A DNA stretch of 64,000 bases from Chitinophaga deserti (GTDB lineage Bacteria; Bacteroidota; Bacteroidia; Chitinophagales; Chitinophagaceae). The notes under the pieces are model-generated. The model had not been told where the DNA came from and ran no database searches. It saw nothing but the letters and a program-made list of their open reading frames with translations. Location: the NCBI RefSeq assembly GCF_003149455.1, contig NZ_QFFK01000007.1:310001-374000 (forward strand), given 5' to 3'. The position numbers and the translations under genes are program-made. Below are positions 1,923 to 64,000 of the stretch, piece by piece (positions within the stretch are counted from its first letter, which is position 1; every line of letters begins with the position of its first letter).

Positions 1923-2368
1923 GGGTTTTGAGGGATTTGATGGCAATTTAGTAGGATTTACGATCCGGTTTTCTGCCGGGAAGGGATTTAACTTTTATTT
2001 GGGGAAAGGGGTATCCTGGCATAAGGACGTAATACCTTCATACATATAGTTTTCGGGGTGATAGTGCACTCACAAGCTTATTTGAAGCTTATTACAAGTT
2101 TATTACAATGTAGTATCTACGTAGCATGTACGGGACAACTACGGGTGAACCTGCAATTAAGTTCGGAGATGAGGTGGACTTGATGCGGAGGTGGTGCGGA
2201 TGCGATGCGGAAGTGGGGTTTTACTGATAGCAGGCGGGGAAAGGGAAGATTGGGCTCTTATTGCCCATGGCATTGGCTGGCGGAGGAGCGGCCTGCCGGG
2301 TAGATTTGGGTTCCATATTATCTGATATTTAATTAGTTATAACAAAATCTCTCAATTATGGCGATATG
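1923..2368. other. Intergenic region with no convincing gene
   Basis: This 446-bp stretch lies between the start of the SH3 gene and the 3' end of the gene at 2369-3142. No credible open reading frame was found. Its middle third is occupied by the 11-bp phased repeat array listed separately. The remaining parts show no clear terminator. Confidence 0.7.
2052..2216. repeat. Array of about 13-15 phased 11-bp repeats, drifting consensus
   Basis: Reading from 2074 in steps of exactly 11 bases, neighbouring units resemble each other and the consensus changes along the array. AAGCTTATT occurs at 2074 and 2085, with AAGTTTATT at 2096; TACG begins the units at 2118, 2129 and 2140; TGCGG begins the units at 2184, 2195 and 2206. 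The unit at 2173 is GGTGGACTTGA. Earlier units at 2052 (TTCGGGGTGAT) and 2063 may belong. The period equals about one turn of the DNA helix, so every unit presents the same face. It is not a multiple of three and is not coding. A related array is at 43395-43526. Confidence 0.7.
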
Positions 2369-3142
2369 CTATTCCCGTTGGATAACCGGCAGTCCGTTTT
2401 GAACGGGAACCGGTTTGTGAACGATGGTTCGTGGCGGGTAAGAGAGATGCTTATGGGGATTAACCTGGGTGGTAACCACTTTCTTTGGCTGGTCTTCTAC
2501 AACGGCGATAATATCTGCTGCTTCGCACTTCCTGTCGCGGATGTCAAAATCATCAAAAAACTGCTTTACCTGTAACGCTACTACCAGGGTGCCTTTACCC
2601 GGTACGTTAACCCACAGATCCCCGCCTTCGAAATCCTGGAAGCGCTCGTTGAGATCAATGCTCAGCACGGCAGTGTCTGTACCTGTAATAGAACGGGTGC
2701 TGAAATCGATCCGGGAAGCGATCACTTTGATCTCCATGCGGACGGCTTTTTTAAATCGCTGAAAGCATTGCGGTGGAATATGGAGCCTGCCGTCTTTAGT
2801 GAATACAGGCGGCGGGCCGAAGTACTTGCTTAACCCAGTGTAACCATTGAAGCGGAATCCTTTCAGGCCTGCGTGGTTGTTTCTGCCTGCTTCTAAAATG
2901 TAGCTGTTGAGACGGTTTACCAGCGCACGGTCGGGGAAGATGTCCAGGTGCGGCCTGATGGCATTGCGGACAAGAGCGCCTTTACGGCTGGCTGCGCCAA
3001 ACGTTTTAGCAGCACGGCGGGTGTTAGCAGTTTGCCGCACGGTGTCAGGAACGGTGCGTAAACAATGCTTACCGTTACGCTTGTAGGCAATGATATTGCC
3101 GAGCCTTCCGGTAAACGGGATGAGAGAATCTAAGATGGCCAT
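2369..3142 (-). CDS. Conserved hypothetical protein, DUF6266-like N-terminus
   Basis: A 257-residue protein with no signal peptide and no membrane segment. Its first 60 residues (G-R-L-G-N-I-I-A-Y-K-R-N-G-K, then a basic, alanine-rich helix) follow the pattern of a Bacteroidota family of unknown function (DUF6266-like: an opening G-x-x-G-x-x-V followed by a run of T/R/A residues). The C-terminal half is predicted to be beta-rich (G-D-L-W-V-N-V-P-G-K-G-T-L-V-V-A-L). These proteins often sit alone in Chitinophagaceae genomes, as this one does; it has 3' space to the repeat array and is divergent from the sulfatase gene. The family link is a memory-based guess and no function can be assigned. 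Confidence 0.65.
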   Translation of the reverse strand: MAILDSLIPFTGRLGNIIAYKRNGKHCLRTVPDTVRQTANTRRAAKTFGAASRKGALVRNAIRPHLDIFPDRALVNRLNSYILEAGRNNHAGLKGFRFNGYTGLSKYFGPPPVFTKDGRLHIPPQCFQRFKKAVRMEIKVIASRIDFSTRSITGTDTAVLSIDLNERFQDFEGGDLWVNVPGKGTLVVALQVKQFFDDFDIRDRKCEAADIIAVVEDQPKKVVTTQVNPHKHLSYPPRTIVHKPVPVQNGLPVIQRE

Positions 3143-3346
3143 AATATTGAGTTTTTTGTTATCCCTTAATATACAAAAAGCGCACCGGAAGTGTGTGCGA
3201 CTGCCATTAGAAGATATTCAATATCAGTGCATTAGGTATTGCAGGACGTCGAAGGTTAATTGTACTAAGGCATAGATATTTTCGAAGGTGACTGCATCCG
3301 GTTTTAGAAGATTTCGAAATTATGCATCTATCCCGGTCTTGATGAT

Positions 3347-43125: not shown

Positions 43126-43394
43126 AGCGCGGAAATTGTGCTGTATGATGTAATACACCGAAGATAATAGCCTTTTTTCACAAAACAAATAAAAATTTAC
43201 GTAAAACATAAAATCTGTGATGAAATGCATAAATGTGGGAGGAAGGGTGGGGCATTTGTTATGAACGGACATATTTTCGGGATTTTTAACAACAGGAATT
43301 AAACTACCTTATCATCTGGCTGTTAATTCTAAGGATTAATTTTACTGTTTTTGAAGCAGTTGAAGACACCCCCTCCGCCAAACCGCTAATATGA

Positions 43395-43526
43395 TTTTAG
43401 CAACCTCACATACGCATCAAGTCCACCTCAAGTCCACCTTAAGTCCACCTCAAGGCCACCTTATATCCGCGCTTAACTCTCATTACACCCGGTGTTGACC
43501 CGGATTTCCCGCCATGTTCCCTGCCG
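43395..43526. repeat. Second array of about 12 phased 11-bp repeats
   Basis: In exact 11-base steps, TCAAGTCCACC is found at 43417 and again at 43428, with one-base variants at 43439 and 43450; the flanking units at 43406 (TCACATACGCA) and 43461 (TTATATCCGCG) keep the C-C-R-C core. Further units at 43483 and 43494 share A-C-C-C-G-G at the same offset, and those at 43505 and 43516 are C-rich. TCAAGTCCACC is the reverse complement of the unit at 2173, and the 18-base word CGCATCAAGTCCACCTCA at 43413-43430 is the reverse complement of 2170-2187. Confidence 0.72.
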
Positions 43527-43608
43527 CTGACTTCATTTAGGTAATATACCATCAATATTGCTACTGAATATGGCCCAAACGGTAACCGGCTTTACCGGTA
43601 AAGAAATA

Positions 43609-59400: not shown

Positions 59401-62400
59401 GCCATGGGCAACAGCAATACCGCCGGTAATATGCTGACGCTGGTTTATGACATATCAGCTCCGGCTGCTACTTTTACCACTACCGCAGTATCTCCTGTTG
59501 GTACTCCGTTCCCAGTAACCTTAACCTTTACAGAGCCGGTTGCCGGCCTTGATATCTCTGAAATTCAGGTGGGCAACGGTATTGTATCAGCGTTAACCAC
59601 TACCGATCAGCAAACCTGGACGTTCACGGTAACGCCCGCAGCTGACGGCAGGGTAACTGTTAATCTGCCTGCAGGTGCTGTTCAGGATGCTGCAGGTAAT
59701 GCAGGTGCTGCAGCTGTAGAGCTTGCACTGGATTATGACGCATCGAAACCGGGAGCAGTTATTTCGACAATTGCAACCTCTCCGGTGAATGCAGCCTTCA
59801 CAGCAACAGTGACCTTTACTGAAGCAGTAACAGGCTTCACGGCAGGGGATGTGTCCACCACGAATGGTACGATCTCAAATTTAGCTACCAGCGATAATAT
59901 CACGTACACCTTTACCGTAACGCCTGTTACTTCCGGTAATGTGACTATTAATGTGGCGGCTGATGTGGCGACCGATATTTCAGGTAATGGCAATACAGCT
60001 GCTGCTGAACTTGCAGTGGTATATGATGGATTGAGTCCTGTAGTGGTTATTACTACTACGGCAACCTCGCCAGTAAACGCAGCCTTCCCTGTAACGGTAA
60101 CCTTCTCAGAAGCAGTGGCAGGGTTTGATGTGAGTGATATCAGCATCACGAACGGTATAGTTTCTAACTTCGTTTCCAATAATAGTATCTTCTATTCCTT
60201 CACCGTAACGCCTGTTGCTTCCGGCAATGTGACTATCAATGTTGCGGCTGGCGTGGCAAACGATGCTGCAGGGAATGGTAATGCGGCAGCCGGTCAGCTT
60301 TCGCTGGTTTATGACAACTCGCTCGTAGGTACGACAATAACTTCTGCGGTAACATCCCCGGTAAACGGGGCGTTCCCTGTAACCGTGACCTTCACGGAAG
60401 CCGTAACGGGCTTCATGGCAGGAGAAGTAACAGTAACCAACGGTACAATCTCCAACTTCGCTACCAGCGATAATATTACCTACACCTTTACTGTGACGCC
60501 AGTTGCCTCCGGTAATGTAACTATCAATGTGCCAGCTAATGTAGTGACCGGTGGTGCGGGTAATGGTAATGCTGCTGCTGCGGAACTGGCCATTATGTAT
60601 GACGGCATGAAGCCGGGAACTGTTATTGCTACTGCAGCAACTTCACCGGTAAACGCAGCCTTCCCTGTAACCGTGACCTTCACGGAAGCAGTAACGGGCT
60701 TCACGGCAGGAGATGTATCCGTCACTAACGGTACAATCTCCAACTTCGCTACCAGCGATAATATTACGTACTCTTTCACCGTAACGCCCATTGCTAATGG
60801 CAATGTGACGATTAATGTAGCCGCTAATGTGGCAAACGATGCAGCGGGTAATGGTAATACTGCGGCCACGGAGCTGGCACTGGCGTATGACGGATTGAAT
60901 CCTGTAGTTGTCCTTTCGACTACAGCAACATCACCGGTTAATGCAGCCTTCCCTGTAACCGTAACATTCTCAGAAGCAGTTACAGGCTTTGATGTGAGTG
61001 ATATTACCATCACCAATGGTACTGTCTCCAGCTTCGCAACCAGCAATAATATCATATACACCTTTAGCGTAACGCCTGTTGCTTCCGGCAATGTGACGAT
61101 CATTGTTTCAGCAGGAGTGGCAAATGATGCTGCAGGTAACAGTAATGCAGCTGCAAATCAACTGTCGCTGAATTACGACGCCTCTCTGGTAGGCACTGCT
61201 ATTGCCACTACGGTTACTTCACCTGTAAATGCAGCCTTCCCTGTAACTGTGACCTTCACGAAAGCAGTAACAGGCTTCATAGCAGGGGATGTGTCTGTAA
61301 CCAATGGTACTATCTCGAACTTCGCGACCAGCGATAATATCACCTATACCTTTACCGTAACGCCTGTTACTTCCGGTAATGTGACGATTAATGTCTCGGC
61401 CAATGTGGCAACAGATGCAGCGGGTAATGGTAATACAGCTGCCGGGGAGCTGGCGCTGGTGTATGACGGTGTTAAACCGGGTGCTGTTATCACTACTACA
61501 GCAACTTCACCGGTAAACACAACCTTCCCTGTAACTGTGACCTTCACGGAAGCAGTAACGGGCTTCACGGCAGGGGATGTGTCTGTAACCAATGGTACTA
61601 TCTCGAACTTCGCGACCAGCGATAATATTACCTATACCTTTACCGTAACGCCTGTTGCTTCCGGTAATGTGACGATTAATGTCGCAGCCAATGTGGCAAC
61701 AGATGTAGCGGGCAATGGTAATACAGCTGCTGGGGAACTGGCACTGGTGTATGACGGTGTTAAGCCGGGTGCTGTTATCACTACTACAACAACTTCACCT
61801 GTTAATGCAACCTTCCCTGTAACTGTGACCTTCACGAAAGCAGTAACGGGCTTTATAGCAGGGGATGTGTCTGTAACCAACGGTACTATCTCGAACTTCG
61901 CTACCAGCGATAATATCACCTATACCTTCACCGTAACGCCTGTTACTTCCGGCAATGTGACGATTAATGTCGCAGCCAATGTGGCAACAGATGTAGCGGG
62001 TAATGGTAATGCGGCTGCTACTGAACTGGCACTGGTGTATGACGGTGTTAAACCGGGTGCTGTTATCACTACAACAACAACTTCACCTGTAAACGCAGCC
62101 TTCCCTGTAACCGTGACCTTCACGGAAACTGTAACGGACTTCACAGCAGGGGATGTGTCTGTAACCAATGGTACTATCTCGAACTTCGCGACCAGCGATA
62201 ATATTACCTATACCTTTACCGTAACGCCTGTTACTTCCGGCAATGTGACGATTAATGTCGCAGCCAATGTGGCAACAGATGTAGCGGGCAATGGTAATAC
62301 AGCTGCCGGGGAACTGGCACTGGTGTATGACGGTGTTAAGCCGGGTGCTGTAATTGCTACTACAACAACTTCACCTGTTAATGCAACCTTCCCTGTAACT

Positions 62401-64000
62401 GTGACCTTCACGGAAGCAGTAACGGGCTTTGTGGCAGGGGATGTGTCTGTCACCAATGGCACTGCCTCTAACTTTGCTACCAGCGATAATATCACATATA
62501 CATTTACCGTAACGCCCGTGGCTTCTGGTATTGTGAGCATCAATGTTGCTGCTAACGTGGCAACTGATGTAGCGGGTAATGGTAATACAGCTGCCGGGGA
62601 ACTGGCAATTGTGTTTGATAATATCCGTCCGGGTGTAGCAATCACCACTACGGCAAGTTCGCCAACCAATGGACCGGTACCCGTGACTGTGACCTTCACG
62701 GAAGCGGTAACAGGCTTCGATGCATCAGACTTGAATATCACGAATGGCACCATTTCCAGCTTTACTGCTGTAGATGCGGCGACGTATACCTTTACCGTTA
62801 CCGCCGCCGCCGATGGCGTCGTGAGGATCAACTTACCTGCCGGTGTGGCCAACGACGCTGCCGGTAACAGTAATACCCCTGCCGTGGAACTGAATTATAG
62901 TTACACTGGTACAAAACCTGATGTAACACTCACAGCTACCGGAACAAACGCTGTCAATGCCCCAATTGCCCTGACCATCCGCTTCAGCACAGCGGTAGCC
63001 GGTTTCGACGCATCCGATATACAATTGGATAATGCCACCATAAGCGCTCCTGTATCTGCTGATGGCATCACCTGGCAAGCCACGGTAACACCTGTTGCTG
63101 AAGGAGCCTTCAGCGTGAGCATCCCGGCCAATGCAGCACAGGGTACCGGCGGTAACGGTAATACCGCATCTAATGTACTTAACAGAGTATACGATGTAAC
63201 AAGGCCAGCTGCAGCATTGCAGATTACTCCGGCATCCGGCAGCAATTATACTGTAACCGCCACATTTACAGAGGCAGTTACCGGATTAGCAGCAGGAGAT
63301 ATCAATATCACCAATGGAGTGGTATCGAACCTGCAATCTACAGGTGCTAATACTTATACATTTACCATTACAGCACTGGCAGAAGGAAATGTAACTGTGA
63401 AGATCCCGGCAAACGCAGCAACAGATGCAGCAGGCAATGGAAATACCGCCAGCGCGGATGCTACTGTATTCCACAGTGCCGGTGCACCATCAGTAACGAT
63501 TACATCTGCTTCCGCAGCAGTTCTGAATCATGCATTCAATGTAACGTTTACTTTCTCCAAACCAGTAACCGGCTTCACGGCAGGTGATGTGGAAGTAACG
63601 AACGGGGCGGTGTTGAACCTGACTGCTGTTACTGACCGCACCTTTACGGCCAGTATCGTTCCGGCAGGAGATGGGGAAGTAACGCTTGTTGTACGCGCGG
63701 GTGCTGCGGTAGACCAGGGAGGTAAGGCCAATACTGCATCCAATACCCTCAGCAGGCAGTATGACGGTACCCGTCCTGGTGTAGCAGTAACCACTACGGC
63801 AGTATCTCCGGTGAACGGTGCCTTTACAGTTCAGATCCGCTTTACAGAGAAGGTGAATGGCCTCACTAACGGAGGTCTGCAGCTTCAGAATGCTACTGCG
63901 GGTGTGATCACCACTACTGACAACATTACCTATACCACTGTAATTCGTCCTACTGGTGGGTTTATTCAGATATCCGTGAAGGAAAGCGCCGTAACAGACG
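50416..64000 (+). CDS. Giant secreted adhesin-like protein with cadherin-like and about 31 Ig-like domains (3' end outside window)
   Basis: One open frame of 4,528 codons runs from ATG 50416 to the end of the window without a stop. A signal peptide (M-L-R-F-L-R-S-L-T-F-L-W-L-L-L-L, cleaved near T-A-R-S-Q) is followed by an unidentified beta-rich domain to about residue 195 and several divergent Ig-like domains. Calcium-type segments recur, such as V-D-G-G-P and D-K-A-G-N-V-S. Residues about 1367-1572 hold two cadherin-like repeats (D-V-N-E-A-P, D-D-D-A-G-E, T-T-D-S-D-G). From residue 1573 on, Ig-like domains of 95-97 residues repeat in tandem, each with a T-F-(T/S)-E-A-V-T-G-F strand, N-G-T-I-S, a T-V-T-P strand and D-A-A-G-N-G-N-T-A. 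It is probably a surface adhesin or matrix protein; a T9SS or CHU-type C-terminus would be expected but is not in view. The nitronate-monooxygenase-like gene is upstream. Confidence 0.93.
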   Translation, partial: MLRFLRSLTFLWLLLLQFVSITARSQDLLTFNSPFTGTIEDIVHGYSIFTGSSLQATSNNGVAFDFASAFSYRDQPNGKGILTQQHNGGFSFSRALGFWYTETAGDKVIFSRADGKNFTFTSVMIGVVAPINPKMVMFRGYRNGVLVASEAVSVGVGGSTSQTYFASAAAWKVVTQVEVESLSGTFGLMFDQLTVDVAPEPQLSFNSAVVNPQLQIYQFTGTIISNTGPGITEAGFYWTDQPLPQPITQNTFKAIEGTNITGGFVSSSILMAKGASYRLVSYVKNSIGTFYSAERIINIPLDPPVITRVTSSPTKEEYVTYNMAFLRPVSLPQLPAMLNLVTTGNISGNFTTAHSIGNGWNVTVQTTGDEGSIQLEFTGNNTSVPYTSTTKAGSPAITIDRVKPVVSITSPSPAVSIGPDFSISYSLSETASVTYSVDGGPAVPATSPFTYTAPGPGSYVMTISALDGVGNASVPQTLNLAVVQTPTAAFVSTPPATTNNTNAAFTVNSDIPGSTFSYELDGVLQSATGNTLSLSGLMPGTHTLLVFAESGGNKQATGTAFTWEIDQTVPGKPVITGLINDNGFSNSDRITSSTSVGVSGESEPGAIVNIQYDGTFVGQSIADGSGAWSFLYPFTVTAGNHIFKATQTDKAGNVSTFSDDFSFTADLTRPKVTSIAQPPAGNLRPGLSIEFIATLSEPIDGYPNSCSMFYTYGGQSYEFEFGGFQDGNKIIFRYVLKPGESFTNMFQSGWTFNGIVADHGDMTDISGNHADFTTVPAPVVTNIINSDPVAPVVTGDPVITDGNYILNSEILITRTFSENVFVTGNPSIILIIGSEVGRANYFSGNGTSTLTFKYAVPADVEGVVEAYKSLSMAGATIKDAAGNNATGLSAGGSVINSNAIVDSKAPRYSGTAVITPYVTGGQEVQLDISFNENVFVTSPPVPYIQGMVGGVARQFDYAFANGKKLRFKWTVPADVEDHDGIELSDAIQGAGLIITDGLGNPAVLDLGDSIRITSGLIIDSKAPVITEIVQPDAGFYRSGAVLVYTVKFSEIVLVGSAYPKLHVNIGGTPHILNYWNGDGTKELKFKLGVQPGMNEPVGVLISAFAPGTLTDFYGNAFNGTVIPIPAISGIVIDNTAPLATSFTSTSGNYKLGDVISFEIGYNEEMVAFGSNLALEVGIGSRTEYLPLTLSADKLSLRASYTVAAGDEDLDGIFIIRQIRSRDGTSHLKDRAGNVFSLAFPGTLYNINVDGNAPQVLGHQILGDYYKPGDVLKVNVTFNKQVSVTSGVPELDIVTGATVLTLHYTGQPGSSVLTYELTIPAGVPCGRIDGIQFSTLTRSGVISDNFGNVLTSAANFTMVDNHYFDNCAPVITNTLNFSVNEKSAAGTFVGQPVATESPDASRTLTWEISGQIDLGGHGIFPLAINTATGEITVKDPDGFRFAVQPVVTALVRVYDGANWSNSHTVTVTVLDVNEAPSNITISNTTINEVEHIGATVGALSSTDDDAGETFTYSLVAGTGSADNNSFAIAGNSLITNTILNRYTKASYAIRVRTTDSDGLYFEKAFTINVTDTSRPRINWESLVDGSSKNAAFDVVLVSTEPLLGLSVSDFNILNTTVSNLVNLGSNRYQITLTPTLDGVYTISLPDNVAQDNAGNQNIGSGNRTFYYDTQRPTVIMSGLTASPANVPIQFDLIFSEKVSGLSEVGMLVFNGNTVITTTDQQHYSVTITPIANGAVTWGLYNDIARDAAGNGSVGLGNYTVVYDNTRPTATLSAIPAGPNVNGNVNITVDVSELNLTLLASHFVPVNATISGFSQVSSTIYQFTLVPGSEGACSVQLAENSFKDAAGNWNTASNKIDLNFDVTPPTATMTTSAPANTNVSPIPVTLTFSEKMSGLNPAVFNTAASGTIHNLTTTDNITWTFDLLPSAPGDAVVVLPAGYVTDLAGNLNTGINEVRVKYDPTAPSPIFYTSSSGGINQPVYVRVMFMEEVTGFTETDLALTNCTVSDWVVEDSRNYTFTINGTPDTQGDMSVALPQNILTDLAGNGNIAGNITVAYDRKGPVVSMTNLAAGVVTGPFQVRVSVGETPYGFAAANMLIINGSVTSFAPDGVNSFLITVTPDQDGDVYVALPVNAILDATGNGNTPIDFTVPYDLNPPTPTIHTHYSSPFNGDFDGSVIFSERVSGFVQNELLITNGTISNWATTDNIAYTFTVTPLSEGTVTLNVNADVAVDRVNRNNLAAAPLSVQIDKTPPTVQLVSSTPNPTNSSISLTATFSEAVYGFTDADVVISNGTIGNFHTNDGIVYTFNVVPAGEGNITVTLHPGAGRDRAGNANTLAMLTIVYDITPPDAVITSSATSPTSAAIPFTVTFTEKVLNFVQTDLQVTNGNITGFTTTDNITWDVTVAPVADGPVTVGMLSGIANDEAGNLNNAATDIIVTYDGSVPGVTLSTTSPAIANTAITLTATFTEAVTSFPLTDFVVVNGQVNTLVQVSPNKWTFTLTPVGNDIDVSVYLPAGKAFDGAGNGNALSNTLTYHYDATAPAVLTSTTAGSNVKAPFEITVQFSEPVSGFTASDIVLDNGTVTSFTISGTNKWTITVTPVRDDAVNVQFPANMATDAAGNGNTAGGTMTFHYDATAPGVTLSTSAASPVNGAFTVTATFTEPVSDVILSDVNVSNGTKSGFTVLDASTYTFIITPTAGAVSISLPAGAGTDLSGNGNTASNTLALQYDGNQPTVVITTTAASPTNGGIPVTVTFSEAVTGFAAGDITVTNGNVTGLTTSDLITWNFMVIPATSGQVTVNIAANVAADGAGNGNAAAAQLAVVYDIIQPDVTITTTAPAFTNAPVPVTVTFTETVNGFDQGDLIITNGNISGFTTSDNRVWNFTITPAADGFVTINVAAGMAADLAGNANNGAAELSVEYDASRPSVTLVSNVASPVNSLMPITVTFSETVSGFDGSDLIITNGTISRFVDIDQQSFIIRITPTAEGAVTISLPANIATDAMGNSNTAGNMLTLVYDISAPAATFTTTAVSPVGTPFPVTLTFTEPVAGLDISEIQVGNGIVSALTTTDQQTWTFTVTPAADGRVTVNLPAGAVQDAAGNAGAAAVELALDYDASKPGAVISTIATSPVNAAFTATVTFTEAVTGFTAGDVSTTNGTISNLATSDNITYTFTVTPVTSGNVTINVAADVATDISGNGNTAAAELAVVYDGLSPVVVITTTATSPVNAAFPVTVTFSEAVAGFDVSDISITNGIVSNFVSNNSIFYSFTVTPVASGNVTINVAAGVANDAAGNGNAAAGQLSLVYDNSLVGTTITSAVTSPVNGAFPVTVTFTEAVTGFMAGEVTVTNGTISNFATSDNITYTFTVTPVASGNVTINVPANVVTGGAGNGNAAAAELAIMYDGMKPGTVIATAATSPVNAAFPVTVTFTEAVTGFTAGDVSVTNGTISNFATSDNITYSFTVTPIANGNVTINVAANVANDAAGNGNTAATELALAYDGLNPVVVLSTTATSPVNAAFPVTVTFSEAVTGFDVSDITITNGTVSSFATSNNIIYTFSVTPVASGNVTIIVSAGVANDAAGNSNAAANQLSLNYDASLVGTAIATTVTSPVNAAFPVTVTFTKAVTGFIAGDVSVTNGTISNFATSDNITYTFTVTPVTSGNVTINVSANVATDAAGNGNTAAGELALVYDGVKPGAVITTTATSPVNTTFPVTVTFTEAVTGFTAGDVSVTNGTISNFATSDNITYTFTVTPVASGNVTINVAANVATDVAGNGNTAAGELALVYDGVKPGAVITTTTTSPVNATFPVTVTFTKAVTGFIAGDVSVTNGTISNFATSDNITYTFTVTPVTSGNVTINVAANVATDVAGNGNAAATELALVYDGVKPGAVITTTTTSPVNAAFPVTVTFTETVTDFTAGDVSVTNGTISNFATSDNITYTFTVTPVTSGNVTINVAANVATDVAGNGNTAAGELALVYDGVKPGAVIATTTTSPVNATFPVTVTFTEAVTGFVAGDVSVTNGTASNFATSDNITYTFTVTPVASGIVSINVAANVATDVAGNGNTAAGELAIVFDNIRPGVAITTTASSPTNGPVPVTVTFTEAVTGFDASDLNITNGTISSFTAVDAATYTFTVTAAADGVVRINLPAGVANDAAGNSNTPAVELNYSYTGTKPDVTLTATGTNAVNAPIALTIRFSTAVAGFDASDIQLDNATISAPVSADGITWQATVTPVAEGAFSVSIPANAAQGTGGNGNTASNVLNRVYDVTRPAAALQITPASGSNYTVTATFTEAVTGLAAGDINITNGVVSNLQSTGANTYTFTITALAEGNVTVKIPANAATDAAGNGNTASADATVFHSAGAPSVTITSASAAVLNHAFNVTFTFSKPVTGFTAGDVEVTNGAVLNLTAVTDRTFTASIVPAGDGEVTLVVRAGAAVDQGGKANTASNTLSRQYDGTRPGVAVTTTAVSPVNGAFTVQIRFTEKVNGLTNGGLQLQNATAGVITTTDNITYTTVIRPTGGFIQISVKESAVTD
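55132..64000 (+). repeat. Tandem array of about 31 Ig-like domain units inside the giant gene
   Basis: From 55132 the coding sequence repeats every 285-291 bases and from about 58690 every 288 bases exactly, as shown by the equivalent alanine codon at 58690, 59842, 60418, 60706, 61282, 62434 and others. The early units are diverged, the middle units alike, and those at 61186-62625 nearly identical. The last unit is cut by the window end. Each unit begins at the short linker after Y-D-G or Y-D-x. Confidence 0.9.
59746..62625 (+). repeat. Recently amplified 288-bp units with higher-order structure
   Basis: Ten units starting at 59746, 60034, 60322, 60610, 60898, 61186, 61474, 61762, 62050 and 62338. 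The first six carry the linkers K-P-G, S-P-V-V-V, L-V-G-T, K-P-G, N-P-V-V-V and L-V-G-T, that is, a three-unit period of 864 bp repeated twice; the middle units also share F-D-V-S-D. The last four all start with K-P-G-A-V-I and differ at few positions. Units at 61186 and 61762 share T-K-A-V-T-G-F-I and V-T-S-G-N, hinting at dimer duplication. Confidence 0.85.

Follow-up and report, generated by a model that had tools for sequence, protein, structure and literature searches.

Several described systems resemble the arrays reported here, each in part only. BldC, a small wHTH protein of 68 residues (a type that also includes RdfS and Xis), binds direct repeats head-to-tail at a site written AATTXXXX(C) (PMC5859096), and in its filaments on an extended site successive protomers are separated by one turn of DNA (PMC11963761). 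R1 ParR requires two 11-bp repeats (PMC9426499), and in ParR/parC centromeres direct repeats of close to 11 bp adjoin the gene for the protein that binds them. REP/BIME sequences with their RAYT partners (REPtrons) are dispersed extragenic repeats, some of them palindromic, with a bias toward convergent genes, and a repeat class is linked there to a gene copy bearing the same repeat. No such arrays as ours were found among the titles and abstracts listed on Chitinophaga or Bacteroidetes repeats, on REPIN/RAYT and on extragenic 11-bp tandem repeats, most subscription papers remaining uncovered, so that absence from print is not shown.

The dispersed repeat studied here is of a kind that fits none of the known systems testable in this work. 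Unlike REP/BIME sequences, its unit is defined by an 11-bp phase and is tied to a different gene family; a Y1/RAYT origin was rejected, as the Y1 transposase domain PF01797 gave no match in this genome (G000) at E 0.01 while matching in 6 of 14 controls. The likeness to BldC lies in the direct repeats, in a candidate protein of about 65 aa, in an AT-rich step followed by C, and in about one protomer per helical turn, binding being inferred here. However, that protein has no detectable sequence kinship to a solved structure, and the BldC repeats at whiI are 9 bp, whereas we deal with many dispersed, diverged arrays of several classes. In contrast to parC, these arrays occupy many chromosomal sites, and no ParM was named among ten module-neighbour proteins scanned, without a dedicated ParM search. 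The parallels with BldC and ParR are to be taken as analogies of action only, no kinship having been found.

The window, i.e., the whole 64-kb stretch of DNA that was analysed, contains two arrays, W1 and W2, the only places in which a scan scoring periodicity with lags p and 2p gave period-11 peaks of 78 or more (scores 131 and 110). Their features are as follows.

43395..43537, + strand: W2, an 11-bp phased array of 13 units of the TCAAGTCCACC class, a copy without a gene
43417..43438, + strand: core word of the class, in two perfect copies
43252..43600, + strand: stretch found in this genome and missing from the sister genome (28 bp there), by sister comparison
2063..2216, - strand: W1, an 11-bp phased array of about 14 units, the 3' end of a gene-carrying element

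In 11-bp steps from 43395, W2 reads TTTTAGCAACC, TCACATACGCA, TCAAGTCCACC (43417) and TCAAGTCCACC (43428), followed in order by TTAAGTCCACC, TCAAGGCCACC, TTATATCCGCG, CTTAACTCTCA, TTACACCCGGT, GTTGACCCGGA, TTTCCCGCCAT, GTTCCCTGCCG and CTGACTTCATT. The original prediction, made from the window alone, spoke of about 12 units in exact 11-bp phase, of a perfect unit at 43417 and 43428 with its reverse complement at 2173, and of an 18-bp word shared in reverse orientation by two gene-free gaps. Its description of the repeats was accurate: 13 units were counted, both perfect copies were seen, GGTGGACTTGA sits at 2173, and the word CGCATCAAGTCCACCTCA at 43413 is the reverse complement of 2170-2187. 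As for the gaps, one point needs correcting: the gap of W1 makes up the 3' end region of an element, the gene of which (2369-3142) adjoins it, and it is therefore not unrelated gene-free space. W2 is flanked by divergent genes and resembles the solo arrays L005, L019, L010 and L030. The sequence TTTTCGGGATTTTTAAC at 43274, within the stretch 43252..43600, looks like a left end by eye only; a profile search for left ends gave no match in this stretch, and inverted repeats were sought in it and none was found. Coding sequence was rejected as an explanation of the array, stops recurring in a 33-nt cycle when the units are read by eye.

The 18-bp word is clearly not confined to the window. Over the 6.33-Mb genome, 36 exact copies were counted (19 forward, 17 reverse) against none of the reversed pattern, and neighbouring exact words are spaced by multiples of 11 bp. 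The word lies inside an 11-bp array with related units in 28 of 28 places examined, namely 26 distinct loci among 30 fetched plus the two in the window, places on C22 and C23 being left out; at L010, the locus maximum comes from a second array 600 bp off. In the survey given below, only one of 17 arrays (L193, in a 99-codon ORF) overlaps an ORF of at least 90 codons, the other 16 being outside such ORFs. The original prediction of a dispersed element family, which a word no more frequent or phased than expected would have refuted, is thus upheld by the genome-wide counts and by the phase and intergenic position that it proposed to check: the word is strongly over-represented and phased, and period-11 arrays stand almost always between genes. 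Its one-mismatch count was less telling, since 115 occurrences against 80 for the reversed control mean that most such forms are background. The word is the core of one array class among several, hereafter class 1, which is also the class of the gene-carrying element.

This element, which is 1.3 kb long and of which W1 forms the 3' end, comprises three further features.

2063..3322, - strand: complete element, with left end, gene and array
2369..3142, - strand: 257-aa gene of an uncharacterised multi-copy family, with 20 intact copies in the genome
3143..3322, - strand: conserved left end (TTTCGAAAnCnTCTAA...)

In 13 of the 28 word places, a left end precedes an ORF of some 255 codons that has the array downstream on the same strand, the left end being partial or degenerate in the profile search at L008, L009 and L013; L012, L025 and L029 hold left end and array without the gene, and 12 of the 28, W2 included, lack the gene as well as any left end detected by the profile. 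Of 34 close within-genome copy pairs, 24 have their left boundary between -173 and -199 relative to the ATG and the other 10 nearer to it, and the right boundary varies from +206 to +599 after the stop. All 20 gene copies of this genome are open, and an array lies downstream of every one; the sister genome, ‘Chitinophaga pinensis isolate 3’, holds at least 24 copies (23 by search and one at the L045 place). The downstream period-11 score was 92-135 in 43 of 43 copies examined (20 own, 23 sister), versus at most 93 at periods 8, 10, 13 and 14. Among distant copies, it reached 95 or more in 11 of 33 rows (L052 and L104 being one place). Over the whole comparison, seven rows (L043, L046, L062, L064, L078, L092 and L100) gave upstream period-11 scores of 85-93.

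The intact genes of the 257-aa family were shown to be under purifying selection, with dN/dS of 0.10-0.25 in 15 chosen pairs of copies and a median of 0.208 over 109 own pairs with dS below 1.5. Searched against Pfam, NCBIfam and PHROG, the protein gave no family match above cut-off or at 0.001, nor did any PDB sequence match it at E 10. A structure predicted from 48 sequences (pLDDT 85.7), which replaced an earlier AF2 model (pLDDT 65), has a strand-rich C-terminal part, for which Foldseek returned weak beta-sandwich matches only, none at E 0.001 or better. Some likeness to DUF6266 (PF19781) was noted: the N-terminal segments align in hhalign over 55 columns (E 6e-4, probability 29%), and a DUF6266 gene adjoins one module of another genus (L131). 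However, scanned members of the present family, L172 included, fall below the Pfam cut-off, and DUF6266 was rejected as the family of the gene; it was not found in this genome by a search whose controls were also silent.

Beyond class 1, period-11 arrays were surveyed in twenty 20-kb stretches of six large contigs (400 kb), a small sample with stretches and threshold of our own choosing. Seventeen arrays were found at period 11, versus 0-2 at periods 7, 8, 10, 13, 14, 16, 17, 19 and 20, which gives a density of about 42 per Mb and, by extrapolation, some 270 per genome. Convergent gaps of at least 200 bp hold an array in 8 of 10 cases, as against 8 of 63 for other gaps (Fisher p 3e-5), a generous test because the array itself lengthens the gap. 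It looks as though hundreds of arrays with an 11-bp step lie between Chitinophaga genes, tied to an uncharacterised gene family. Their units sort into several sequence classes (by our own sorting) and no single motif is common to all classes, the classes being not fully separate since W1 weakly matches a solo array of another class, L186:17614 (2e-6). Array phase outlives array sequence. Gap lengths that are multiples of 11 were also commoner in arrays (32 of 358) than in 5' regions (8 of 279), a weak result because forced alignments create many short gaps.

Home modules, in which a 257-aa-family gene and/or an HTH-like gene stands beside an array of the same class, were found for four classes. 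The HTH call on this second protein, of about 65 aa, rests on its size and on a look at its sequence only; Pfam gave nothing above cut-off and the PDB nothing convincing by sequence. Three copies of the HTH-like gene occur in this genome: at L171 (HTH-C5), an array lies directly 3' of it; at L172, the array is 2.5 kb away and adjoins a 257-aa-family relative; and at L173 (own C3), a weak short array 3' of the third copy (score 90 / below threshold) has no solo partner among the arrays tested. At L174, a 257-aa-family relative has an array, with no HTH labelled beside it. When 19 solo pieces and 19 control pieces were searched, the L171 array matched the solo arrays L108:5495 (2e-31) and L190 (8e-26), the L172 array L196 (5e-35) and L186:17614 (1e-28), and the L174 array L191 (8e-21), the best control being at 0.07. 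Arrays of modules thus match solo arrays elsewhere, so that a class consists of a home module and of scattered solo arrays.

In Chitinophaga and in other Bacteroidia alike, the HTH-like gene stands divergent from a family member, and some of these loci have arrays adjoining the pair. In Chitinophaga HTH loci of about 3 kb each, the period-11 score was 80 or more in only 5 of 28, with at most 69 at other periods; in all five, the HTH gene is followed on its 3' side by the array, at a distance of 8-120 bp. Relatives of the 257-aa family occur in 37 of 295 genomes of the class; in other Bacteroidia, a pattern search placed the relative divergent from an HTH-like gene of about 65 aa in 10 of 14 loci taken, and L137 and L139 have clear 11-bp arrays upstream of the gene (scores 94 and 102). 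In five members of the genus (G002, G007, G008, G010 and G012), gene copies and words are present and the HTH search gave no match, which speaks against a general role of the HTH protein: either some genomes do without it or the search overlooked it. Some neighbouring genes recur as well. An uncharacterised pair is seen near the HTH and 257-aa-family modules at L171, L172, L176, L178 and L135; one gene encodes a ‘HISLYLALF..W’ protein, three of which were scanned and matched nothing in Pfam, and the other an AAA-like ATPase with a weak match to PF00004. A DUF5675 gene follows the family member at L129 (Pfam match), with similar ORFs by eye at L131 and L136, and in a genome that belongs to another family, three same-family HTH-like ORFs follow one another on one small contig (G034:C228; L156, L168).

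Comparison with the sister genome bears on how the arrays spread. Some sites differ by presence or absence: the 348 bp within which W2 lies correspond to 28 bp in the sister, and the full element at L001 to 68 bp. The full sister element at L096 faces an own site (L108:18320) that is occupied by a gene-less array of a different class. Most sites, by contrast with simple insertion, are old and shared. A syntenic sister copy exists for 17 of 20 own gene copies, plus L045, L043 being unresolved. In 11 of these 17 pairs, gene identity between the species is only 75-84%, yet at least one of the two copies shares 92-99% identity with a paralogue of its own genome. The outer flanks of these pairs are mostly 80-96% identical, poorly aligned flanks being those to the left of L037 and L049 and to the right of L039, L048 and L049. 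Ten of the 17 survey arrays could be placed in the sister, where all ten sites score 80-117 at period 11 and at most 73 at four other periods. By eye, the array class differs at 4 of these 10 sites (L180, L187 and both L189 arrays), including one reciprocal swap. Persistent sites with a changed class, together with genes that resemble their paralogues, point to fixed sites that undergo gene conversion or replacement, and not to simple insertion, as far as sequence comparison alone can tell. The sister stretches hold 17 period-11 arrays in 380 kb, a figure that is not unbiased since they were picked to overlie own arrays. Five sister copies (L084-L087 and L101) are 97-99% identical at different loci, and this genome holds a different family member at 4 of these 5 loci.

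These observations leave room for an unusual transposable element, of which the arrays would be right ends or solo remnants, moved by the 257-aa protein or by a protein acting in trans, with MITE-like gene-less copies. We consider this unlikely but still worth entertaining, on account of the conserved left end, of dispersed copies without flank homology, of the internally deleted L012, L025 and L029 that keep left end and array, and of the presence or absence of W2 and L001 (own only) and of L096 (sister only). The original prediction had suggested looking for conserved flanking ends and target-site duplications; the former exist, on the left side of gene-carrying copies, and the latter were not established, the flanks of empty sites being too diverged for any to be shown. 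The two window copies have no terminal inverted repeats of the IS or MITE kind (other copies were judged by eye), the gene-carrying one showing a single internal inverted pair of 18 nt at 78%. Moreover, the right boundaries vary, and no transposase is recognisable in the 257-aa protein, which matches no family above the cut-offs, has no structural match at E 0.001 and shows no transposase-like fold. The age of most sites (at least 18 of 20 gene copies and all 10 placed solo arrays are shared), the other-class array at the own site matching L096, and class exchange at fixed sites are likewise unlike simple insertion.

The reading that we favour, tentatively and stopping just short of calling it probable, is that of protein-coated arrays, with one protomer per turn, homogenised by recombination; both the binder and the spreading mechanism are inferred, in the absence of binding data. 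W2 would be one solo member of a set of arrays that lie between genes throughout the genome and keep an 11-bp step, i.e., about one helical turn; on these arrays a small module protein would assemble head-to-tail, one protomer per turn. The HTH-like protein of about 65 aa would be the first candidate binder and the 257-aa-family protein the second, binding being a supposition for both. Several findings weigh against this reading, namely the slender basis of the HTH call, the small share of HTH loci with a clear array, the five genus members without an HTH match, the lack of a labelled HTH at L174, the weak and partnerless array at L173, the incomplete separation of the classes and the want of a motif common to them, besides the small size of the survey. 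Recombination (gene conversion) between dispersed copies may keep a class alike and may swap arrays between sites. The composition of class-1 units modulo 11, with A/T at positions 2-3 and C/G at 8 in both this and the sister genome, and more weakly in distant copies, is the in-phase pattern expected from selection by a small protein binding once per turn. As a first guess, the coat would insulate transcription or the chromosome at convergent 3' ends; it is not known whether it serves instead in compaction, or in protecting or multiplying the module.

The wider picture, of Chitinophaga chromosomes with hundreds of protein-coated, helically phased arrays in several specificity classes, each class encoded and maintained by a small module of its own, and competing or being exchanged at fixed intergenic sites without a transposase of their own, is possible rather than expected. 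If right, it would describe a dispersed repeat system defined by helical phase and not by sequence, with its own selected gene family. It would offer a testable handle on the class-wise marking of convergent gene ends or chromosome sites, another on the exchange of repeat classes between fixed sites, and a first lead for an unannotated gene family of Bacteroidia.

A role in RNA was weighed in two forms. The arrays may be Rho-utilisation sites, unstructured C-rich and G-poor RNA with a C every 11 nt downstream of genes, in line with the C every 11-13 nt described for rut sites (PMC6407284). Class-1 arrays have such a C-rich, unstructured core with a regular step (C/G of 3.1-4.1 around the core on the sense strand of the gene), and arrays favour convergent 3' ends. 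We nevertheless find this improbable, as C/G falls to 1.1-2.0 beyond three units from the core, W2 lies between divergent genes, and the strict step and conserved core word exceed what Rho needs. Orientation also fails in 5 of 9 convergent arrays, only 4 of 9 having their C-rich side facing both genes.

Even less can be said for RNA or cruciform hairpins of the REP/BIME kind, with the 11-bp step as that of A-form RNA. Eight of 19 solo arrays do fold better than shuffles (z below -2), 5 of 19 arrays have inverted halves (dyad of at least 55% over 60 pairs), and convergent placement is as described for REPs (PMC3733652). However, 3 of 19 control pieces also pass, and no folding is seen in class-1 arrays, with 1 of 31 below -2. 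A known RNA element was rejected as a candidate, with no Rfam match in the window and unstructured class-1 arrays. Neutral tandem repeats, propagated through slippage and drift, are very improbable, and the period controls already tell against them: unit number does differ between close copies and 11 is the commonest gap length above 4 (25 of 358 gaps), but there is a single period in which diverged units stay in phase, with an intergenic and convergent bias and a fixed link to a gene under selection.

The coated-array reading may also be set beside other genomes. In the genus, the 18-bp word was found in 31 of 40 genomes, in several of them only at control level, and over 25 genomes word copies track gene copies (Spearman 0.68, p 2e-4; 0.64 without this genome), versus 0.27 (p 0.19) for a control word. 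Five genomes with fully listed words were checked for words that share the strand of a gene copy and lie no more than 1.6 kb downstream of it; such words were 7 of 9 in G012, 6 of 15 in G004, 4 of 16 in G008, 1 of 3 in G007 and 0 of 15 in G003. Period-11 arrays number 1-4 per 100 kb in the Chitinophaga genomes G007, G008, G010 and G021, and no trusted period-11 excess was seen in G001 and G014 of the same genus (3 and 4), in G150 of another genus (0) or in G234 of the same class (4). A very regular 11-bp array of ATGCTTCTTCG at L233:17741 in G014 (score 179) is possibly coding. Elsewhere in the window, at 59773-62618, a 288-bp unit is repeated in tandem about ten times (TRF score 2915); this stretch is also matched in the sister genome and is probably a repetitive coding region.
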